Positions 43,968 to 53,884 of a stretch of DNA of 64,000 bases are shown one piece after another. This stretch comes from Halomarinibacterium sedimenti. Its GTDB lineage: Bacteria > Bacteroidota > Bacteroidia > Flavobacteriales > Flavobacteriaceae. Every line of letters begins with the position of its first letter. Position 1 is the first letter of the stretch. The stretch is taken from assembly GCF_019312585.1 (NCBI RefSeq), contig NZ_JAHWDP010000001.1, positions 744,001 to 808,000 of the forward strand. The letters run 5' to 3'. A program made the translations under genes and the position numbers. A model generated the notes under the pieces. It saw nothing but the letters and a program-made list of their open reading frames with translations, did no database searches and had not been told where the DNA came from.

Positions 43968-44594
43968 ATGATACAAGAACTTAAAAATAGTTATGGTCAT
44001 CTTTTTGAAAATGAACTTCTTGAAGAAATAAATCAAGTTGGTACTTTTAAAGAAATTCCACAAGACTTTACTTTAATTGAAATAGGTGAGTATATAAAAT
44101 CTATGCCTTTACTTATTTCCGGGGCTATAAAAGTGTTAAGAGAAGATAATGACGGAGATGAGCTTCTTCTTTATTTTCTTGAAAGAGGAGATACATGTGC
44201 GATGACTCTAAGCTGTTGTTTGGGGCAAACCAAAAGTGAAATAAGAGCCATTGCGGAGTTGGATACCAAACTAGTCATGATTCCCATTCAAAAAATGGAG
44301 GAATGGACAGGAAAATATAGGACCTGGAGGAACTTTGTATTTGAAAGCTATCATAACAGGCTTATGGAAATGCTTGAGACTATTGACAACATTGCGTTTA
44401 TGAAAATGGACGAACGCCTATTAAAGTATCTAAACGATAAAGTAAAAGTTACCAAGGAACATATGTTACACATTACGCATCAAGAAATAGCATATGATCT
44501 TCATACCTCAAGGGTAGTAATTTCTAGGCTGCTTAAAAGTTTAGAGAAATTAAAAAAGATTAAGCTCCATAGAAATAATATAGAAATATTGTAA
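43968..44594 (+). CDS. Cysteine-rich Crp/Fnr family regulator of the sulfur module
   Basis: 208 residues from the ATG at 43968. An upstream TTG at 43929 lies inside the terminator stem and is rejected. An N-terminal cyclic-nucleotide-binding-type beta-roll (about 20-125) is followed by a long dimer helix and a winged helix-turn-helix (ITHQEIAYDLHTSRVVISRLLKSLEKL). The sensor domain holds Cys77, Cys83 and Cys84 (GDTCAMTLSCC). There is no N-terminal Fnr iron-sulfur cluster motif. These cysteines are candidates for sensing persulfide, metal or redox stress. It probably binds the GTAAC-N4-GTTAC palindromes upstream of the three following units. Confidence 0.88.
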   Translation: MIQELKNSYGHLFENELLEEINQVGTFKEIPQDFTLIEIGEYIKSMPLLISGAIKVLREDNDGDELLLYFLERGDTCAMTLSCCLGQTKSEIRAIAELDTKLVMIPIQKMEEWTGKYRTWRNFVFESYHNRLMEMLETIDNIAFMKMDERLLKYLNDKVKVTKEHMLHITHQEIAYDLHTSRVVISRLLKSLEKLKKIKLHRNNIEIL

Positions 44595-44610: not shown

Positions 44611-44626
44611 TGTAACCTTTGTTACA
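44611..44626. promoter_or_regulatory. Operator 1: TGTAACCTTTGTTACA palindrome
   Basis: Arms TGTAAC and GTTACA are exact inverse complements separated by 4 bases, the geometry of Crp/Fnr-type dimer sites. It lies between the Crp/Fnr gene and tauE-like 44672. The core GTAAC-N4-GTTAC recurs at 45482-45497 and 47873-47888. Confidence 0.75.
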
Positions 44627-44647: not shown

Positions 44648-44655
44648 TACTTTTG
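44648..44655 (+). promoter_or_regulatory. -7 box for the TauE-like gene (TACTTTTG)
   Basis: A full TAnnTTTG match starting 21 bases after operator 1 and ending 16 bases before the ATG. The operator centre would be about 41-43 bases upstream of transcription start, as for class II Crp activation. Confidence 0.65.
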
Positions 44656-45481: not shown

Positions 45482-45497
45482 TGTAACCATTGTTACT
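45482..45497. promoter_or_regulatory. Operator 2: GTAAC-N4-GTTAC palindrome
   Basis: TGTAACCATTGTTACT keeps the five-base arms GTAAC/GTTAC of operator 1 with the same 4-base spacer; the outermost pair is lost. It is upstream of the persulfide dioxygenase unit. Confidence 0.75.
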
Positions 45498-45518: not shown

Positions 45519-45526
45519 TATCTTAG
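45519..45526 (+). promoter_or_regulatory. -7 box for the persulfide dioxygenase unit (TATCTTAG)
   Basis: Seven of eight positions fit TAnnTTTG (A replaces the third T). It starts 21 bases after operator 2, the same distance as at the TauE-like gene. A weak -7 box fits a promoter that needs an activator. Confidence 0.5.
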
Positions 45527-45552: not shown

Positions 45553-46965
45553 ATGCACATTGAACAAATATATACTGGATGTCTTGCACAAGGGGCATAT
45601 TATATTGAAAGTAAAGGAGAAGTGGCCATTATTGACCCGCTTCGAGAAGTACAACCTTACATTGAAAAGGCAAAACGAAGTAATGCAACTATAAAATACA
45701 TTTTTGAAACGCATTTTCACGCAGATTTTGTGAGCGGTCACGTAACCCTTTCAAAAGAAACTGGCGCCCCTATTGTTTATGGCCCTACTGCCAATCCCTC
45801 ATTTGAAGCAATCATTGCAAAGGATGGACAAGAATTTAAGCTTGGAGAAATAACTATTATAGCGTTACACACACCTGGTCATACCATGGAAAGTACAACC
45901 TACTTATTGAAAGATAAACATGGAAAAGACTACGCTATATTTAGTGGAGACACGTTGTTTTTAGGAGACGTCGGAAGACCCGATTTGGCTCAAAAAGCTG
46001 CACATATGACTCAAGAGGAATTAGCAGGAATGCTCTTTGAAAGCCTTCGAAATAAAATTATGCCTTTGGCAGATGATGTGATTGTATATCCTGCTCACGG
46101 GGCAGGCTCTGCATGCGGAAAAAACATGATGAAAGAGACGGTAGATACACTTGGCAATCAAAAGAAAATGAACTATGCCTTACGAGCCAATATGACAAAA
46201 GAAGAGTTTGTTAAAGAAGTAACAGACGGTTTATTGCCTCCTCCTCAATACTTCCCTTTAAATGTAAAAATGAATAAAGAAGGGTACGATGATATTGATA
46301 AAGTAATAGAAAGAGGAACAAAGTCACTTTCGCCAGATGCTTTTGAAACAGCGGCAAACGAAACAGGAGCCATCGTTTTGGATGTTAGACATCAAGACGA
46401 TTTTGTGAAGGGGCATATCCCACGGTCTATTTTTATTGGCTTAGACGGCGGTTTTGCACCTTGGGTGGGAGCTTTAATTGCAGATGTAAAACAACCCATA
46501 TTACTTGTTACTCCAGGGGGTAGAGAAGAAGAAGCTGTAACACGACTCTCTAGAGTGGGTTTTGACAACACCCTTGGCTACCTCAATGGAGGATTTGAAG
46601 CTTGGAAAAATGCCTCAAAGGAATATGATACACTTACCTCCATTCCAGCAACTTCATTAGAGAAAAAACTACATGAAGAAACTGTTCCCGTGTTTGATGT
46701 TCGAAAAGAGGGAGAATTTACTTCAGAACATATTGAAGGAGCGAAAAATACCCCACTTGATTTTCTTAATGATTATTTAGCTGAATTCCCTAAAGAAGAA
46801 ACTTTTTATGTTCATTGTGCTGGTGGATACCGAAGTGTTATTGCAGCATCTATCCTTAAAAGCAGAGGAATTCATAATGTAATAGATGTTGCGGGAGGTT
46901 ATAAAGACATCAAAGAAACAAGTATTCCAAAAACAAATTATGTGTGTCCAAGTGAATTAAAATAG
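45553..46965 (+). CDS. Persulfide dioxygenase fused to two rhodanese domains
   Basis: 470 residues. Residues 1-250 are a metallo-beta-lactamase fold of the ETHE1/persulfide-dioxygenase group: H54-F-H56-A-D58-F-V-S-G-H63, TPGHT, and SGDTLF for the metal-binding aspartate. Two rhodanese domains follow. The first (about 270-345) has VTPGGRE where the catalytic cysteine loop should be, so it is probably inactive. The second (about 370-465) has the active loop C422-A-G-G-Y-R-S. The reaction expected is oxidation of glutathione or other persulfide to sulfite, with sulfane sulfur handed over by the rhodanese part. It heads a unit with the HMA and methyltransferase genes. Confidence 0.93.
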   Translation: MHIEQIYTGCLAQGAYYIESKGEVAIIDPLREVQPYIEKAKRSNATIKYIFETHFHADFVSGHVTLSKETGAPIVYGPTANPSFEAIIAKDGQEFKLGEITIIALHTPGHTMESTTYLLKDKHGKDYAIFSGDTLFLGDVGRPDLAQKAAHMTQEELAGMLFESLRNKIMPLADDVIVYPAHGAGSACGKNMMKETVDTLGNQKKMNYALRANMTKEEFVKEVTDGLLPPPQYFPLNVKMNKEGYDDIDKVIERGTKSLSPDAFETAANETGAIVLDVRHQDDFVKGHIPRSIFIGLDGGFAPWVGALIADVKQPILLVTPGGREEEAVTRLSRVGFDNTLGYLNGGFEAWKNASKEYDTLTSIPATSLEKKLHEETVPVFDVRKEGEFTSEHIEGAKNTPLDFLNDYLAEFPKEETFYVHCAGGYRSVIAASILKSRGIHNVIDVAGGYKDIKETSIPKTNYVCPSELK

Positions 46966-46971
46966 TGCGCT

Positions 46972-47241
46972 ATGAAACATATCATTGAAATACAAAATCT
47001 TAAATGCGGAGGCTGTGCTAAAACTATTGAAAACAACCTAAGACAAATCGACAACTTAGAATTGATAAATATTGAGATTGAAACAGGAAGTATTACTTTT
47101 AAAACAACTTCTGAAGATGCCTTATCTCTAGCTGAAAGGAAACTTCAAGAAATAGGGTATCCTATTGTTGGAGAGAAAAACTCTGTTGTAACAAAGGCAA
47201 AATCCTTTGTTAGTTGTGCTACGGGTAAAATGAGTAAATAA
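46972..47241 (+). CDS. Small HMA-domain protein (metal or thiol binding)
   Basis: 89 residues. A ferredoxin-like heavy-metal-associated domain with the binding motif KC12-G-G-C15AKT after the first strand, and the family's second helix SLAERKLQEIGY. A third cysteine, Cys82 (FVSCATGK), lies in a short C-terminal tail not usual for metallochaperones. HMA proteins carry Cu+ or similar soft metals between proteins. Here, 6 bases after a persulfide dioxygenase, carriage of sulfane sulfur or a soft metal is possible. Its last base overlaps the next gene's start (TAATG). Confidence 0.85.
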   Translation: MKHIIEIQNLKCGGCAKTIENNLRQIDNLELINIEIETGSITFKTTSEDALSLAERKLQEIGYPIVGEKNSVVTKAKSFVSCATGKMSK

Positions 47242-47825
47242 TGACTCCTTTTGACCAATCCTATTGGGACAATAGATACAAAGAGGGTAGCACCGGTTGG
47301 GACATTGGAACTATTTCAACACCATTAAAAGAATATTTTAATCAACTAAAAGATACTTCTCTTAAAATTTTAATCCCTGGAGGAGGCAATGCTTACGAAG
47401 CAGAATATCTTTATAAGAAAGGATTTAAAAATGTTACCATTGTAGATATTTCAGAAACGGCACTTAACAATGTTCAAAAAAGAGTAACCGATTTTCCAAA
47501 ATCACAATTAATACACCAAGATTTTTTTGAATTTGAAGGAAGCTTCGATTTAATTATTGAACAAACCTTTTTCTGTGCTTTAGATCCTTCTTTACGAAAG
47601 GAATATGCAAAAAAAATGCACGCGCTTCTAAATCCTAATGGAAAAATAGTTGGTTTGCTATTCGACTTTCCGCTAACTTCTGACGGCCCTCCTTTTGGTG
47701 GAAGTAAAGAAGAATACCTTACCTATTTTAAACCCTATTTTAATATTAAGATACTTGAAAGATGCTACAATTCTATCCTACCAAGGGCTGGGAGAGAGCT
47801 ATTTTTTAAATTTCAGAAATACTAA
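47241..47825 (+). CDS. TPMT-like SAM-dependent methyltransferase
   Basis: 194 residues. The N-terminus SYWDNRYKEGSTGWDIGTISTPL is the signature of the thiopurine S-methyltransferase group. The SAM-binding glycine loop is ILIPGGGNAYEAEYL, with VTIVDIS as the acidic second strand. Bacterial relatives methylate thiols, selenium or tellurium compounds, producing volatile or less reactive species. In this operon a thiol or chalcogen substrate fits, but no substrate can be read from the sequence. Confidence 0.85.
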   Translation: MTPFDQSYWDNRYKEGSTGWDIGTISTPLKEYFNQLKDTSLKILIPGGGNAYEAEYLYKKGFKNVTIVDISETALNNVQKRVTDFPKSQLIHQDFFEFEGSFDLIIEQTFFCALDPSLRKEYAKKMHALLNPNGKIVGLLFDFPLTSDGPPFGGSKEEYLTYFKPYFNIKILERCYNSILPRAGRELFFKFQKY

Positions 47826-47872: not shown

Positions 47873-47888
47873 GGTAACAAAAGTTACT
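47873..47888. promoter_or_regulatory. Operator 3: GTAAC-N4-GTTAC palindrome
   Basis: GGTAACAAAAGTTACT: perfect GTAAC/GTTAC arms with a 4-base spacer, the same core as operators 1 and 2. It is upstream of the TolC-RND unit. Confidence 0.75.
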
Positions 47889-47910
47889 GACTCGCCTATA
47901 CCCTTCCCTC

Positions 47911-47918
47911 TATATTTG
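47911..47918 (+). promoter_or_regulatory. -7 box for the TolC-RND unit (TATATTTG)
   Basis: A full TAnnTTTG match starting 22 bases after operator 3 and ending 18 bases before the tolC-like ATG. The operator-to-box spacing is within one base of the other two promoters. Confidence 0.65.
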
Positions 47919-47936
47919 CCACAAAATATATAGTAG

Positions 47937-49238
47937 ATGAAATACACATATATCATTATTCTTTTGTTTTTGACTGGCACAATGTTTTCTCAAGAATCCA
48001 TTTTAATTACAAAAAAAGAAGCCATTTCAAAAGCGCTAGAAAACAATAATAGTATAAAAATTGTTGGTGAACAGGTAAACGAAAGCAAAGCTGATTACAA
48101 ACAAACAAATGCGATATTTTTACCCAATATTTCTGCATCATATACTGGAATTACTACTACAAATCCTTTAATGGCTTTTGGTTCAAAACTTAATCAAGAA
48201 GTAATTTCTCAAAGTGATTTTAATCCGCAATTTTTAAATGACCCTAATCGTACTACTAATTTTGCCACAAAAATTGAAGTACAACAACCTTTAGTAAATA
48301 TTGATGGGCTTTTTCAAAGAAAAGCAGCAAAAGCTAAATTTAATGCCTCCCAAATGCAGTGGGAACGCACCAAAGACTATGTAGCTTTAGAAACACAAAA
48401 AGCCTATATGCAATTACAACTGGCTTACAAAATGGTTGAAGTGCTTGAAAAAGCTAAAGTAGCTGCAAATGCAAATTTAAAATTAGCACAAAATAACTTT
48501 GCACAAGGGTATCTTCAAAAAGCTGATGTATTGGCGGTTCAAGTGCGCGTTACCGAGGTGGAAAATCAATTACAGTACGCAAAGAGCAATGTAAAAAATG
48601 CATCCAATTATCTATCGGTACTTATTAATGACAATCGTTTTTCTCTTTTACAACCTTCCGATTCATTAGCGGTAGAAGGATTAAATAATCCTACCTCAAA
48701 TCTTTCTAATGAAAGAGCCGATATTAAAGCAATGGAATATGCGACGCAAGCATACGAAAAAATGTATAAGGCCGAAAAAATGACCTTTCTGCCTCGCCTA
48801 AATGCTTTTGGAAGTTACGAACTCTATGACAATGAAATCTTTCAAGCAGATGCCAATGGATACCTTGTAGGAGCTAGTTTAAGTTGGGACATTTTGGAGG
48901 GAGCACAACGCTTTGCTAAATCCAAAAAAAGTAAGGCCTCTTTTGAAAAATCGAAGTATGAACTCAACCAGTATAAATTGGAAAGTCAAATTGCATTAAA
49001 CCAAGCAGAACGAATGTTAGAAGATGCAGAAAATAGTTTAAAACTATCCAAGTTAGCCCTGGAACAATCTGAAGAATCATTACGCATACGAAGCAATCGC
49101 TATAAAGAAGGATTAGAAAAAACAACTGACTTACTTATGGCAGAAACACAATATGCACAAAAACAATTAGAATATTATCAAACCATTTTTCAATATAACT
49201 ACGCTAAGGATTACGTAGAATTTTTAACCAAAGAATAA
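47937..49238 (+). CDS. TolC family outer-membrane efflux protein
   Basis: 433 residues. The signal peptide is cleaved after FSQ. The mature protein has the long coiled-coil helices and internal duplication of outer-membrane factors (EKAKVAANANLKLAQNNFAQGYLQKADVLAVQ in the first half, RYKEGLEKTTDLLMAETQYAQKQLEYYQT in the second). It provides the exit duct for the adaptor and RND pump encoded directly downstream. It is preceded by operator 3 and its own -7 box. Confidence 0.93.
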   Translation: MKYTYIIILLFLTGTMFSQESILITKKEAISKALENNNSIKIVGEQVNESKADYKQTNAIFLPNISASYTGITTTNPLMAFGSKLNQEVISQSDFNPQFLNDPNRTTNFATKIEVQQPLVNIDGLFQRKAAKAKFNASQMQWERTKDYVALETQKAYMQLQLAYKMVEVLEKAKVAANANLKLAQNNFAQGYLQKADVLAVQVRVTEVENQLQYAKSNVKNASNYLSVLINDNRFSLLQPSDSLAVEGLNNPTSNLSNERADIKAMEYATQAYEKMYKAEKMTFLPRLNAFGSYELYDNEIFQADANGYLVGASLSWDILEGAQRFAKSKKSKASFEKSKYELNQYKLESQIALNQAERMLEDAENSLKLSKLALEQSEESLRIRSNRYKEGLEKTTDLLMAETQYAQKQLEYYQTIFQYNYAKDYVEFLTKE

Positions 49239-49246
49239 TTATTAAA

Positions 49247-50332
49247 ATGAAAAACTATATATACTTAACCTCTTTTATTTCACTTTTAATTACCACGATA
49301 AGTTGTGGTGGTGATTCAAAAAAAGAAACTTTAGATAACACCCCTCCAATTTCGGTAACTGTAAATGCAATACAAGACACCACAAACAATCCATTTCTTA
49401 ATGTGAGCGGAAAAATACAATCAGTACAAAGTGCCGACTTAAGTACCCGAATGATGGGCTTTGTTAATAAAGTACATGTAAAAGTGGGTGATAAAGTAAA
49501 AAAGGGACAACTATTAGTTTCAATTAACAACACCGATTTACAAGCACAACTTGCACAAATAAATGCGAGTATTACCGAAGCAAATGCGGCATACAATAAT
49601 GCCAAAAAGAATTACGATCGTTTTCAAAATCTATTTGCAGAAAATAGTGCGTCACAAAAAGAAGTAGATGATATGACTGCTCATTACGAAATGGCTAAAG
49701 CCAGATTGGAAGCTGCAAAACAAATGAAAAACGAAATCAATGCCCAATTTACCTATTCAAATATTACCGCTCCTTTTAACGGCGTAATTACAGGAAAGTC
49801 AGTTGAAGAAGGAAATATGGCGAACCCAGGAATACCTCTAATTTCAATGGAAGCTCCAGGTAATTTTGAAGTAATTGCAATGGTTCCTGAAACCGAAATT
49901 TCAAAAATAAAAAACGATAGTAAGGTAGACGTTATTGCCAAGTCTATAAGTAAAACCATTTCTGGAAATGTAGTAGAAATAAGCACCTCTGCTAGAAATA
50001 CAGGCGGACAATACTTAGTAAAAATTGCTTTGGACAAAACCGAAGCCCCCATATTATCTGGAATGTTTGTGAATGTACAATTCCCTCTAGAAAAAAAGGC
50101 AAATGCCGTCTCTTCAACCTTGTATGTGCCAGAAATTGCTTTAGTAAAACAAGGACAATTAACAGGGGTTTACACCATTGGAAATGGCAATGTCGCCCTA
50201 TTAAGATGGCTGCGAATTGGGAAAACCTTTGGTGATCAAGTAGAGGTACTTTCAGGATTATCTAAAAATGAACAATATATTATATCTGCGGAAGGGAAAT
50301 TGTATAATGGAGCAAAAGTTACGGTTCAATAA
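49247..50332 (+). CDS. RND efflux periplasmic adaptor (membrane fusion protein), lipoprotein
   Basis: 361 residues. The lipoprotein signal ends TTISC (Cys20). A biotinyl-lipoyl-like hairpin (VNKVHVKVGDKVKKGQLLVSI) is followed by a coiled-coil hairpin, the second lipoyl half (APFNGVITGKSVEEGNMANPG) and beta-barrel domains. It bridges the inner-membrane RND pump to the TolC duct. It starts 8 bases after the tolC-like stop. Confidence 0.95.
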   Translation: MKNYIYLTSFISLLITTISCGGDSKKETLDNTPPISVTVNAIQDTTNNPFLNVSGKIQSVQSADLSTRMMGFVNKVHVKVGDKVKKGQLLVSINNTDLQAQLAQINASITEANAAYNNAKKNYDRFQNLFAENSASQKEVDDMTAHYEMAKARLEAAKQMKNEINAQFTYSNITAPFNGVITGKSVEEGNMANPGIPLISMEAPGNFEVIAMVPETEISKIKNDSKVDVIAKSISKTISGNVVEISTSARNTGGQYLVKIALDKTEAPILSGMFVNVQFPLEKKANAVSSTLYVPEIALVKQGQLTGVYTIGNGNVALLRWLRIGKTFGDQVEVLSGLSKNEQYIISAEGKLYNGAKVTVQ

Positions 50333-50368
50333 CCGCTAACCACGCACTGAAACTTAAAACTCAAGAAA

Positions 50369-53300
50369 ATGCAAGAAGGAATATCAGGTAAAATTGCTCA
50401 GTTTTTTATCAATTCAAAGCTAACCATTTTATTAATGTTAGCCTTAATGATTATTGGATCCTACAGTTCCTTTCTCATACCAAGAGAAGAAGAGCCACAA
50501 ATTAATGTCCCTATGGCCGATGTTATGGTAGGATACCCAGGAGCAAGCCCTTCGGAGGTAGAAAGTAGGGTGCTAAAACCCCTTGAAAAAATTATTGGTA
50601 ACATAAAAGGGGTAGAGCATATCCATAGCATGGCCATGAACGGACAAGCCGTCATGGTAGTTCAATTTTATGTCGGAGAAAACACAGAAGACTCTTATGT
50701 AAAGTTATATGATGAATTAATGAAACATCAAAACATGTTTCCCGAAGGTGCCATGCAGCCTATGGTAAAAACTCGTTCTATTGACGATGTGCCTATGTTA
50801 GGATTAACACTTTGGAGCGAAAACTATAACGACTTTCAACTAAGACAAATTGCTGAAGAAGTTACCAACGAAATTGAAAAAGTAAAAGACGTTTCCATTA
50901 CCAAAGAAATTGGTGGGAGAACAAGAGCTCTCAAAGTAGTTCTCGATAAAGCTAAAATGGCTGAAAACGGCGTGGATGCATTAGGAATAATGCAAATGAT
51001 TCAAGCTAATAATGGAAGCTCGCAATCGGGTAGTTTTGTACAAAACGATACAGAATATTTAATGACTACTGGAAAATTTTTAACCTCCTCAGAGGATGTC
51101 GAAAACCTTGTAATAGGTATACATAAAAATATGCCCGTGTATTTAAAACAAGTTGCTTCCATCCAAGACGGTCCACAAACCCCAAAAAATTATGTGACTT
51201 TTGGCTATGGTAAAGCCAACAAACAATATTCAAATTATAAATCGGAATACCCCGCAGTAACTATTTCTATTGCAAAAGTGAAAGGAGCCGATGCAATGAA
51301 AATTTCAGAAAAAATCCTTTCTCATGTAGAAAATTTAAAGAAAACCTTACTCCCTTCCGATGTTCACGTTGAGGTGACTCGTAATTATGGGGAAACTGCC
51401 TCATACAAAGTAGGAGAATTATTGCTTCACTTGGGTGTCGCCATTCTCGCCGTTACAATTCTTGTTATGCTTGCAATGGGCTGGCGAGGGGGATTGGTAG
51501 TATTCTTTTCGGTGCCCTTAACCTTTGCCCTTACCTTATTTAGTTATTATATGCTGGGGTACACATTAAACCGAATCACTCTTTTTGCTTTGGTATTTGT
51601 GGTTGGTATTGTGGTAGATGATAGTATTATTATTGCCGAAAATATGCACCGGCATTTTAAGATGAAACGCTTGCCCTTTAAACAAGCCGCAATTTATGCC
51701 ATTAATGAGGTGGGAAATCCGACCATCTTAGCCACTTTTACCGTTATAGCAGCAATACTGCCCATGGCGTTTGTTTCGGGAATGATGGGGCCATATATGA
51801 GCCCTATGCCCATTGGCGCGTCCATAGCAATGTTGCTATCGTTATTTGTTGCATTAACGGTAACACCATATTTAGGGTATCACCTCTTGCGAGAAAAACA
51901 TACCGAAGAAGAAAAAGAAGAGAAAGGACTTGAAACTAGCTGGATTTTTAAAATTTATAAGAAAATCGAGCAGCCCTTATTGGATAATTCCAAAAAACGA
52001 AACCTAATGTTTTTGGTTACCATTGTTTTGTTATTTGGTTCCATGCTTATGTTTTTTACAAAATCAGTAGCCGTTAAAATGTTGCCATTTGATAATAAAA
52101 ATGAATTTCAAATAGTAGTTGATATGCCCGAAGGAACTACCTTAGAAAGAACTGCTGTGGTCACGAAAGAAATTGCTCAATATCTTTCTACAGTTCCAGA
52201 GGTGGTAAATTATCAAAACTATATAGGAACCTCCGCTCCTATCACCTTTAATGGACTTGTAAGGCATTACGATATGCGAGGGGGTAGTAATATGGCAGAC
52301 ATACAGGTAAACTTGCTTCACAAAGAAGATCGCGATTTACAAAGTCACGATATTGCAAAAGAAGTTCGTACTGAGGTTCAAAACATTGCCAAAAAATATG
52401 GCGCTAATGTAAAAATAGTGGAGGTTCCGCCTGGACCTCCAGTATTATCTACGTTGGTGGCCGAAATTTACGGTCCTAATTATGAAGAGCAAATAAAAGT
52501 TGCCAATCAGGTTAAAACAATTTTAGAAAACACAGCAGATGTAGTAGATACCGACTGGATGGTAGAAGCCCCTCAAGTTGAATACAAATTAGAAATTGAT
52601 AGGGAAAAGGCGATGTTAAATGGCATTGCACCGCAACAGATAGTAGGTAATTTAACCTATCTCCTTCGTGAGATGCCAGTTTCAAATCTCTACGATGAAG
52701 CTTCTGTAGATCCTGTTGGTATAGTTCTTTCACTAGACGATGCCGATAAAACTTCGCTTCAAGATATTCAGAATTTAAAAATTAAAGGGAGTCAAGGAAA
52801 TGTAATTCCCGTGAGTGACTTAGTAAATGTAAAGGAGGGGACTCTTAAAAACACCATTTACAGAAAAGACCAGAAACGTGTTGTTTATGTATTGGCCGAT
52901 ATGGCAGGCGAATTAGAAAGTCCTGTATATGCTATTCTAGGAATGAATGAAAAGTTGCAACAAATGGAATTGCCTAAAGGATATTCGGTTAGTGAATTAT
53001 ACCTAGGACAACCCGAATCTGAAGATGATTTTACCGTAAAGTGGGATGGGGAGTGGCAAATTACCCTAGAAGTATTTAGAGATTTAGGGACTGCATTTTT
53101 AGTAGTTATTATTATTATTTATATGCTTATTGTAGGCTGGTTTCAAAACTTTAAAACTCCCCTTGTTATGATGGTTGCAATACCTCTTTCCCTAGTAGGT
53201 ATTGTATTAGGCCATTGGATTTTAGGAGCTTTCTTCACAGCGACTTCTTTTATTGGAATGATTGCATTGGCTGGTGTTATGGTGCGAAATTCGGTTCTAT

Positions 53301-53572
53301 TAATCGATTTTATTGAAATTCGTTTAAATGATGGCATCCCAATGAAACAAGCTATTATAGAAGCAGGAGCCGTAAGAACTACACCCATATTATTAACTAC
53401 TGGAGCCGTGGTCATAGGAGCCTCAATTATTTTGTTTGACCCCATTTTTCAAGGCTTGGCTATTTCCTTGGTTGCGGGTGCTATCGTATCCACATTGTTA
53501 ACACTTATTGTGGTTCCCTTGATTTACTATATCACCGAACGAAAAAAATGGGAGAAAAATCTTAAAAAATAA
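50369..53572 (+). CDS. RND family efflux permease
   Basis: 1067 residues, full length for an RND pump with 12 transmembrane helices and two large periplasmic loops. The proton-relay aspartates D417 and D418 lie in VGIVVDDSIIIAENMHRH. YPGASPSEVESRVLKPLEK near the start and the second-half GMIALAGVMVRNSVLLIDFIE are typical. The DD motif is closer to the hydrophobe/amphiphile pumps than to the heavy-metal pumps. Substrate is unknown. Promoter context (operator 3) ties it to the persulfide genes. Confidence 0.95.
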   Translation: MQEGISGKIAQFFINSKLTILLMLALMIIGSYSSFLIPREEEPQINVPMADVMVGYPGASPSEVESRVLKPLEKIIGNIKGVEHIHSMAMNGQAVMVVQFYVGENTEDSYVKLYDELMKHQNMFPEGAMQPMVKTRSIDDVPMLGLTLWSENYNDFQLRQIAEEVTNEIEKVKDVSITKEIGGRTRALKVVLDKAKMAENGVDALGIMQMIQANNGSSQSGSFVQNDTEYLMTTGKFLTSSEDVENLVIGIHKNMPVYLKQVASIQDGPQTPKNYVTFGYGKANKQYSNYKSEYPAVTISIAKVKGADAMKISEKILSHVENLKKTLLPSDVHVEVTRNYGETASYKVGELLLHLGVAILAVTILVMLAMGWRGGLVVFFSVPLTFALTLFSYYMLGYTLNRITLFALVFVVGIVVDDSIIIAENMHRHFKMKRLPFKQAAIYAINEVGNPTILATFTVIAAILPMAFVSGMMGPYMSPMPIGASIAMLLSLFVALTVTPYLGYHLLREKHTEEEKEEKGLETSWIFKIYKKIEQPLLDNSKKRNLMFLVTIVLLFGSMLMFFTKSVAVKMLPFDNKNEFQIVVDMPEGTTLERTAVVTKEIAQYLSTVPEVVNYQNYIGTSAPITFNGLVRHYDMRGGSNMADIQVNLLHKEDRDLQSHDIAKEVRTEVQNIAKKYGANVKIVEVPPGPPVLSTLVAEIYGPNYEEQIKVANQVKTILENTADVVDTDWMVEAPQVEYKLEIDREKAMLNGIAPQQIVGNLTYLLREMPVSNLYDEASVDPVGIVLSLDDADKTSLQDIQNLKIKGSQGNVIPVSDLVNVKEGTLKNTIYRKDQKRVVYVLADMAGELESPVYAILGMNEKLQQMELPKGYSVSELYLGQPESEDDFTVKWDGEWQITLEVFRDLGTAFLVVIIIIYMLIVGWFQNFKTPLVMMVAIPLSLVGIVLGHWILGAFFTATSFIGMIALAGVMVRNSVLLIDFIEIRLNDGIPMKQAIIEAGAVRTTPILLTTGAVVIGASIILFDPIFQGLAISLVAGAIVSTLLTLIVVPLIYYITERKKWEKNLKK

Positions 53573-53884
53573 ATGATGAAACTACTAATTATTACCGCTA
53601 TTACAGCCTTTGAAGAAGATATAAAACAAATGCTTAAAGAAGCAGAAGTAACCACGTTTACATATAAACATGTTACAGGTTACCGAGATTCAACCATGGA
53701 TTCAATTGAAAATAATTGGTTTGGTTATGAAATGAATGAAAACGAATCGGTTTTGTTTTATGCCTTTCTAAAAAAAGAAAAAGTGGATGTATTTTTTGAT
53801 TTAGTAGAACAAAAAAATGCAAAAAAAGAATCAAAATCAAGCATCCACGTAGCGAGTATCAACATTGAAAAAATCAATTCCTAA
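53573..53884 (+). CDS. Small PII-like (ferredoxin-fold) protein
   Basis: 103 residues, beginning directly after the RND stop codon. The order of predicted elements fits a PII-like fold: a strand (MKLLIITAITAF), a helix, a strand, a loop (YRDSTMDSIENNWFG), a strand (ESVLFYAFLKKEK), a helix and a strand (SIHVASINIEKI). In canonical PII proteins the loop after strand 2 is the partner-contact loop. Here it might touch the RND pump or the following membrane protein. I cannot name a ligand. It overlaps the next gene by one base. Confidence 0.6.
   Translation: MMKLLIITAITAFEEDIKQMLKEAEVTTFTYKHVTGYRDSTMDSIENNWFGYEMNENESVLFYAFLKKEKVDVFFDLVEQKNAKKESKSSIHVASINIEKINS

Follow-up and report, generated by a model that had tools for sequence, protein, structure and literature searches.

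A Crp/Fnr-family regulator tied to persulfide-clearing genes in Bacteroidota, with an invariant cysteine in its former cyclic-nucleotide loop as a candidate sulfur sensor

The window analyzed here, a stretch of 64,000 nucleotides from Halomarinibacterium sedimenti (contig NZ_JAHWDP010000001.1, positions 744,001 to 808,000), contains the gene of a Crp/Fnr-family regulator followed by genes for an exporter and for a persulfide dioxygenase (pdo). Crp is the textbook ligand-switched activator, and the question raised by this locus is which signal its regulator perceives, and by means of which residues. The features needed to approach it are the following:

43968..44594, + strand: Crp/Fnr-family regulator, 208 aa from the ATG, with cNMP_binding (PF00027) and HTH_Crp_2 (PF13545) domains; the fold of its predicted model matches 3dv8 and Crp
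44196..44219, + strand: C77-AMTLS-C83-C84, the former cyclic-nucleotide loop; C77 invariant, C83 and C84 variable
44196-44198, + strand: codon of C77
44214-44216, + strand: codon of C83
44217-44219, + strand: codon of C84
44672..45475, + strand: TauE/SafE-family exporter, tauE (PF01925, E 5.9e-45)
45553..46965, + strand: pdo, CstB-like persulfide dioxygenase with two fused rhodanese domains, 470 residues, assigned by structure-profile matches
46972..47241, + strand: small heavy-metal-associated (HMA) domain protein (PF00403), likely on the same transcript as pdo
47241..47825, + strand: TPMT-like S-methyltransferase (PF05724), likely on the same transcript as pdo

The cysteine motif in the former ligand loop

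The architecture of the Crp/Fnr superfamily (an N-terminal beta-roll, a long helix and a C-terminal HTH) was recognized by both domain and fold matches. The predicted model, with a mean pLDDT of 88.5 (77 over residues 71-80 and 75 over residues 81-90), has a standard Crp fold, and its nearest folds were those of cAMP-bound Vfr, 3dv8 (Z 21.7) and Crp (Z 21.6 for 3ryp). The regulator has matches at E 1e-10 or better in 118 of 296 sampled Bacteroidota genomes. The sole other protein of its own genome above the HTH_Crp_2 cut-off is a response-regulator-Crp fusion (L334, in the region C9:424254-424457), which has no cysteine at the C77 site.

The three-cysteine motif described in an earlier note on this DNA occupies exactly the codons from C77 to C84, and its assignment to the ligand loop of the beta-roll was confirmed by alignment to E. 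coli Crp and by the predicted model. The motif aligns with GDFIGELGLFEEGQERSA of E. coli Crp, C77 immediately preceding the Gly-Glu of the cAMP phosphate-binding cassette. In the model, C77 is flanked by strands 65-71 and 92-96, and C83 and C84 form part of a short helix (81-84). Since these three are the only cysteines of the 208-aa protein, it lacks the N-terminal Fe-S ligands of Fnr, as the same note had stated. Fnr, a 4Fe-4S sensor of O2, uses four cysteine ligands, three of which are near the N-terminus, and at least two cysteines before residue 35 were found in just 2 of the 222 aligned rows described below. CprK, which has a disulfide pair, CooA and Fnr share the Crp fold with the window protein. 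Unlike CooA, the window protein has no His in the ligand loop: it begins with MIQ and is without histidine in residues 70-90. The heme ligands of CooA are given as Cys75/His77 and the N-terminal Pro2 in the available text of PMC6955866.

A regulator that still binds a cyclic nucleotide, its cysteines being structural, would agree with the cNMP_binding match and with the nearest folds listed above. It is nevertheless extremely improbable. The position of Crp Glu72 is occupied by Met79 in the window protein and by Glu in 0 of the 222 aligned members, while that of Crp Arg82 is Lys89 in the window protein and Arg in 11 members (replaced in 211/222). With both contacts replaced, the cassette of the cAMP type (Gly-Glu ... 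Arg-Ser) is gone. In addition, a cAMP analogue was not bound by PgRsp of Porphyromonas gingivalis, a probable relative discussed below, according to the accessible part of PMC12040651.

Conservation of C77, C83 and C84 among relatives

An alignment of 222 rows was prepared from the window protein and 221 relatives, which were drawn from 80 loci of named contigs, 10 plasmid loci (10 of 31 matching plasmid records) and 120 of the matching regions across Bacteroidota, some of the loci contributing two family members. Rows with 45 bits or less, 90 aligned residues or less, or an open frame below 150 aa were excluded; a member with an in-frame stop (L196) was included in part. The genes in the loci of the relatives were called as longest open frames by a simple script.

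C77 did not vary in any of the 222 rows. All three cysteines (CCC) were present in 116 of the 221 relatives, C77+C83 in 42, C77+C84 in 4 and C77 alone in 59, so that a second cysteine of the motif stands beside the invariant C77 in 162 of them. Six residues were invariant in the 222 sequences (G52, Y69, C77, H171, R182 and R187), the last three of which are HTH residues. Of the six search words used to obtain loci L051-L130, one included C77; this cysteine was also kept in all 123 rows obtained from a whole-protein search (loci L154-L273), which had been chosen independently of it. Cysteines outside the motif were lacking in 173 of the 222 rows: exactly three cysteines occurred in 110 of the 117 CCC rows, exactly two in 14 of the 42 C77+C83 rows and in 1 of the 4 C77+C84 rows, and a single one in 48 of the 59 C77-only rows. 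No other cysteine was common to a whole pattern group, the commonest being that of position 43 (19/42 C77+C83 rows).

Invariance of the cysteines among orthologues with the same targets had been the test proposed for the motif. C77 passed it, and C83 and C84 did not: either or both are absent in members with the same neighbours. Among the rows of a 147-row set with PDO or TauE encoded in the next four genes, 25 were CCC, 17 C77+C83, 1 C77+C84 and 9 C77-only. The three cysteines as an invariant unit were therefore rejected, the pattern varying both in the alignment and beside PDO and TauE.

A tree of these 147 rows, built after removing the three cysteine columns, needs nine changes of pattern. 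All of its 46 CCC rows fell within one clade of 69 rows (support 95), and one C77+C84 row (L244) lay outside this clade. A deep branch containing the Alpha- and Gammaproteobacteria together with one member of the Clostridia is C77+C83 (GESCVLTTACML, GETCIVTTSCLL and CLFSASCML), and C84 appears to be mostly an addition of the Bacteroidota. The best solved relative, the Crp/Fnr structure 3dv8 from Eubacterium rectale (profile E 1e-52), keeps C77 and C83 and, unlike the window protein, lacks C84.

Two close relatives without C84 (L095:8001-8630 and L100:8001-8630) carry the same operator in front of the next genes. Downstream of both regulators an FeS subunit was recognized by sequence, and in L095 a molybdopterin oxidoreductase as well, which might act on sulfite or polysulfide.

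Neighbouring genes, operators and promoter layout

The protein encoded by pdo matched 3tp9 over residues 1-453 (E 3.2e-68) and 3r2u, which we take to be CstB of S. aureus, over residues 2-454 (E 4.9e-55). In loci with a single family member, PDO was encoded in the next four same-strand genes after 65/106 CCC, 13/42 C77+C83, 8/49 C77-only and 1/2 C77+C84 regulators, and TauE after 60/106, 12/42, 8/49 and 1/2, respectively, in counts where the CCC members are over-sampled near the window and thus biased to near relatives. The phylum sample is less biased, and in it PDO or TauE came next in 18/37 CCC, 14/32 C77+C83, 0/3 C77+C84 and 9/51 C77-only rows; of its 37 CCC rows, 19 had neither of the two within four genes downstream and 11 had no named sulfur or thiol gene there. 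A CCC copy and a C77-only copy occurred together in ten loci (L059, L068, L069, L085, L093, L094, L096, L118, L157 and L182). The CCC copy was followed by PDO in 8 of them and by TauE in 6, and the C77-only copy by PDO in 0 and TauE in 0; several of these C77-only copies precede YeeE/YedE genes. A phylogenetic paired test of the second cysteine against PDO/TauE contained three independent pairs only, too few for a verdict, and the same test against any named sulfur or thiol gene leaned slightly against an association.

Outside the phylum, the regulator was found in 4 of 5 alphaproteobacterial plasmid loci (about 30% identity) beside a persulfide dioxygenase-like gene of the metallo-beta-lactamase fold, a YgaP-type gene and SulP. 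Of these four loci, three also contained YeeE/YedE, and an SQR-type fusion or a sulfurtransferase was present in three. Only a YgaP-type gene accompanied the regulator in Azospirillum (L144) and in the gammaproteobacterium Thiothrix (L146). No PDO was seen within 6 kb at these two loci or at the CCC locus of Persicobacter (L151), and no sulfur-oxidation gene was annotated within 6 kb of the clostridial member (L149, C77+C83). The linkage of the regulator to sulfur genes is strong.

The predicted operators and the promoter boxes of the window are listed below:

44611..44626, + strand: predicted operator TGTAACCTTTGTTACA before tauE, the single perfect copy of TGTAAC-N4-GTTACA that the 2.96 Mb genome contains
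44648..44655, + strand: -7-type promoter box TACTTTTG, ending 36.5 bases from the operator centre
45482..45497, + strand: predicted operator TGTAACCATTGTTACT before pdo, a sequence match
45519..45526, + strand: -7-type box TATCTTAG, one mismatch, with the same spacing of 36.5
47873..47888, + strand: weak operator-like site GGTAACAAAAGTTACT before the TolC/RND operon, two mismatches, doubtful
47911-47918, + strand: box TATATTTG before the TolC/RND operon, at a spacing of 37.5, one base longer

Both tauE and pdo are preceded by the palindrome TGTAAC-N4-GTTACA, in the window as in most CCC relatives. When it was searched with at most one mismatch in the 200 bases upstream of the genes of CCC loci, it was found before TauE in 49/68 cases, PDO in 50/86, the first YeeE gene in 22/34 and SQR in 10/15. 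The corresponding values were 0/28 for the second YeeE gene, 49/855 for other neighbours and 13/116 for crp itself. Downstream, a box TAnnTTTG (at most one mismatch) ended 36.5 bases from the centre at 122 of the 137 operators of the named genes, and at any other distance in 4 at most. The box occupied this fixed distance at 161 of 207 distinct operators of the CCC loci and at 127 of 168 after dereplication, compared with a background of 164/12320 (1.3%); by gene, this was so for PDO in 51/52, TauE in 46/49, YeeE in 16/25, SQR in 9/10 and unnamed genes in 18/47. TAnnTTTG is the -7 element of Bacteroidota, and the centre of the operator would therefore lie near -41.5, the place where Crp class II activators have their site. 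The fixed spacing of operator and box is thus the predicted layout of a class II activator, and binding at the operator would be activating.

The composite of operator and promoter was then considered as a genome-wide signature. It occurs with 0-1 mismatch twice in the genome of the window, at tauE and at pdo. With at most one mismatch it was present in 66 of the 118 genomes of the phylum with a regulator match versus 13 of the 178 without one, and 95 times in 30 genomes of the family of the window, all with the regulator, versus 12 times for the reversed control, the tests in these comparisons being inflated by the kinship of the genomes. The bare palindrome was rejected as a marker of the regulon, since its one-mismatch sites numbered 13 per strand in the genome of the window versus 23 for the reversed control. 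With up to three mismatches, the composite also showed no excess over the control (59 versus 74 matches in this genome), and the claim was therefore limited to the 0-1-mismatch sites of tauE and pdo. Of the four composite sites with two mismatches elsewhere in the genome, two were read (L276 and L277), and no sulfur gene was seen beside either. One genome (G269) has eight operator-promoter matches in about 26 kb (contig C1, 2653669-2679504), which suggests a large sulfur gene island.

These promoters bear on a second explanation, in which C77 is a general thiol redox switch in the manner of OxyR, responding to peroxide, disulfide stress or an electrophile, with the sulfur genes as part of an oxidative response. 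The genes that often follow C77-only relatives encode OsmC (16/49), thioredoxin (15/49) or a short membrane protein that matches no Pfam family (12/49). The first two would suit such a switch, and mutants in PgRsp are described as sensitive to oxidative stress (available text of PMC6955866). As the only 0-1-mismatch composites are those of tauE and pdo, however, no oxidative-stress target is visible in the genome of the window, and this explanation is considered distinctly unlikely.

The TolC/adaptor/RND efflux operon, together with its weak operator-like site, takes up positions 47873-53884 of the window. This site is doubtful because such matches are not above the genome-wide background. A sensor of a soft metal (Cu, As or Cd) bound by C77, C83 and C84 could be imagined from the three thiols within eight residues, from the HMA protein and the RND pump downstream, and from the second-best match of the pump adaptor to the CzcB/NccB metal-efflux family, which stayed below the cut-off (145.8 of 319.3 bits). 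It is very unlikely. Members with the same targets lack the third thiol and in many cases the second, the strong operators of the window precede tauE and pdo and no metal pump, and the RND permease matched drug efflux (NF033617, 455.8 bits) better than heavy-metal efflux (TIGR00914, 238.8 bits), neither match reaching the cut-off.

Further evidence on the operator came from residue 183, the equivalent of Crp Glu181, which is Val in 135 and Glu in 86 of the 222 rows. Of the sites adjoining Val183 proteins, 165/176 had no GTGAC half (GTAAC type), whereas 15 of the 23 sites adjoining Glu183 proteins had at least one, the sites not being independent of each other. This co-variation connects the regulator with the sites without recourse to gene order. 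The same link between the operator and the Glu181 position is described for the HcpR2 group, whose predicted operator GTAACnnnnGTTAC is the core found here; HcpR2 controls hcp and has Pro at that position, where the window regulator has Val (Rodionov 2005, available text of PMC1274295). The possibility that 3dv8 is an HcpR2 protein was discarded, as it has Glu at that place instead of the Pro reported for HcpR2.

GTGAC-N3-RTYAC was present in 5 of 6 proteobacterial gaps between regulator and YgaP gene, two of them found by script and the others by eye. This 13-base palindrome before the YgaP-type gene (L145, L147, L148, L153 and L146) is one base shorter than the Bacteroidota site.

A candidate mechanism and the known sensors

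A mechanism can be drawn from the following observations: the regulator is linked to the sulfur genes, an operator stands at a fixed distance from the promoter box and co-varies with residue 183, C77 is invariant, and the glutamate that contacts cAMP in Crp has been lost. On the likeliest reading, C77 would be the reactive thiol and the sensor, sulfane sulfur the signal, and C83/C84 the resolving residues in this lineage. On balance, a Crp-type activator driven by reactive sulfur at C77, with C83/C84 resolving, that turns on tauE and pdo is considered probable by a modest degree. The protein would be a dimer in which the cyclic-nucleotide pocket has been turned into a thiol pocket. A persulfide or polysulfide would modify C77 and, in the lineage of the window, C83/C84 would form a resolving bond with it (a di- to tetrasulfide) instead of the binding of cAMP. 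The modified regulator would bind TGTAAC-N4-GTTACA at about -41.5 and recruit RNA polymerase to the promoters of tauE and pdo, whose products would remove persulfide and export the resulting sulfite or thiosulfate.

The chief difficulty of sensing by C77 is posed by the C77-only members with the same targets. Given the nine such rows with PDO or TauE, a Cys-Cys bridge within the motif is not general, and these members may employ persulfidation of the single cysteine or a mixed disulfide, a bridge between subunits, or another cofactor.

Such a cofactor might be heme, and a heme-based sensor of gas or redox state is the main rival because PgRsp, the probable relative from P. gingivalis, binds heme. 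Heme would sit in the pocket with C77 and/or M79 as its ligand, in the way of CooA, HcpR or PgRsp, the signal would be NO, CO, O2 or the redox state of heme, and the connection to sulfur genes would be indirect. According to the available text of PMC6955866, PgRsp is, like the window regulator, a Crp/Fnr protein (207 aa) outside the named subfamilies with 3dv8 as best template, described as heme-binding and redox-sensing. Its Cys76-x-Met78-x6-His85 has the spacing of C77-x-M79-x6-H86 and fits the C77-only subfamily, the kinship resting on motif spacing and length. Unlike for the window protein, no second cysteine is reported there, and the work on PgRsp dealt with heme binding and oxidative stress rather than with sulfur (PMC6955866). 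The window protein departs from this motif, having C77 and M79 but G86, and the pair M79+H86 occurs in 21 of the 59 C77-only rows, which places the two proteins, as judged by these residues, in the same broad branch and in different subgroups. A heme ligand in this loop has precedents in the Cys/His of CooA (PMC6955866) and in Met68 of the P. gingivalis HcpR (accessible part of PMC12750200), and position 79 is Met in 168 of the 222 rows. Against it, position 79 is not Met in 54 rows, 40 of which are C77+C83, the spectra of PgRsp were unaltered by single replacement of C76, M78 or H85 in the available text of PMC6955866, and the neighbour clusters that were identified, among which few of the smaller ones, consist of sulfur and thiol genes. 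A heme sensor is judged unlikely.

Returning to reactive sulfur at C77, the genes involved are of the kind that a known persulfide sensor controls: CstR of S. aureus, with its cst operon, governs tauE, cstB and sqr (available text of PMC5480029). In the window, tauE and a CstB-type dioxygenase gene adjoin the regulator under its predicted operator, and relatives also have sqr and yeeE. CstR is a dithiol sensor (available texts of PMC5480029 and PMC9774590) of the CsoR family, an all-helical repressor of another fold, whereas the window protein is a Crp-type predicted activator with a cysteine in the pocket. SqrR/BigR of the ArsR family and the sigma-54 activator FisR likewise sense reactive sulfur by cysteines (PMC9774590, available text); their folds are unrelated to that of the window protein, SqrR/BigR being repressors and FisR acting with sigma-54. 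The suggestion in the earlier note of a Crp-family regulator tied to persulfide-clearing genes is supported by gene order, operator and promoter layout, and a thiol in its ligand pocket is indeed conserved, and its Crp fold sets the family apart from CstR, SqrR/BigR and FisR, as was also anticipated.

The reactive-sulfur sensors in the available text of a review are CstR, SqrR/BigR, PigS and FisR, Crp appearing in two reference titles alone (PMC9774590). A Crp-type sulfane-sulfur sensor was not found among the open-licence papers searched, nor in the accessible parts of PMC8014003, PMC12170894 and PMC12915319; the closest reports, as far as their available texts go, are those of a persulfidated Crp-like protein in Acinetobacter (PMC7315123) and of PgRsp (PMC6955866). 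If the proposed mechanism is true, this would be an unrecognised kind of sulfur sensor, with an invariant cysteine at the spot where Crp holds cAMP, and, if a pocket thiol replaces cAMP, a fourth fold would join the CsoR-, ArsR- and Fis-type persulfide sensors, as a Crp-type activator among mostly repressors. Uncharacterised regulators of many genomes would then share one explanation, which might also cover why the heme ligands of PgRsp, a redox regulator, have eluded identification, and the operator would immediately predict sulfide-detoxification regulons in Bacteroidota. The wider proposal, that the whole Crp/Fnr branch of Bacteroidota, Alpha- and Gammaproteobacteria and Clostridia has a one-cysteine sulfane-sulfur pocket, with C83 or C84 as a lineage-specific refinement, and is an overlooked major class of activators driven directly by sulfane sulfur, is a real possibility that falls somewhat short of probable.

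Two minor observations concern the loci of the relatives. A contig filed under a Rokubacteria assembly (L066) has a regulator locus like those of Flavobacteria and is perhaps misbinned. Bd oxidases are tolerant to sulfide, and cytochrome bd oxidase genes are annotated near the regulator at two alphaproteobacterial loci (L147 and L153) and were recognized, by sequence only, near it at some Bacteroidota loci (neighbour clusters 19 and 20).
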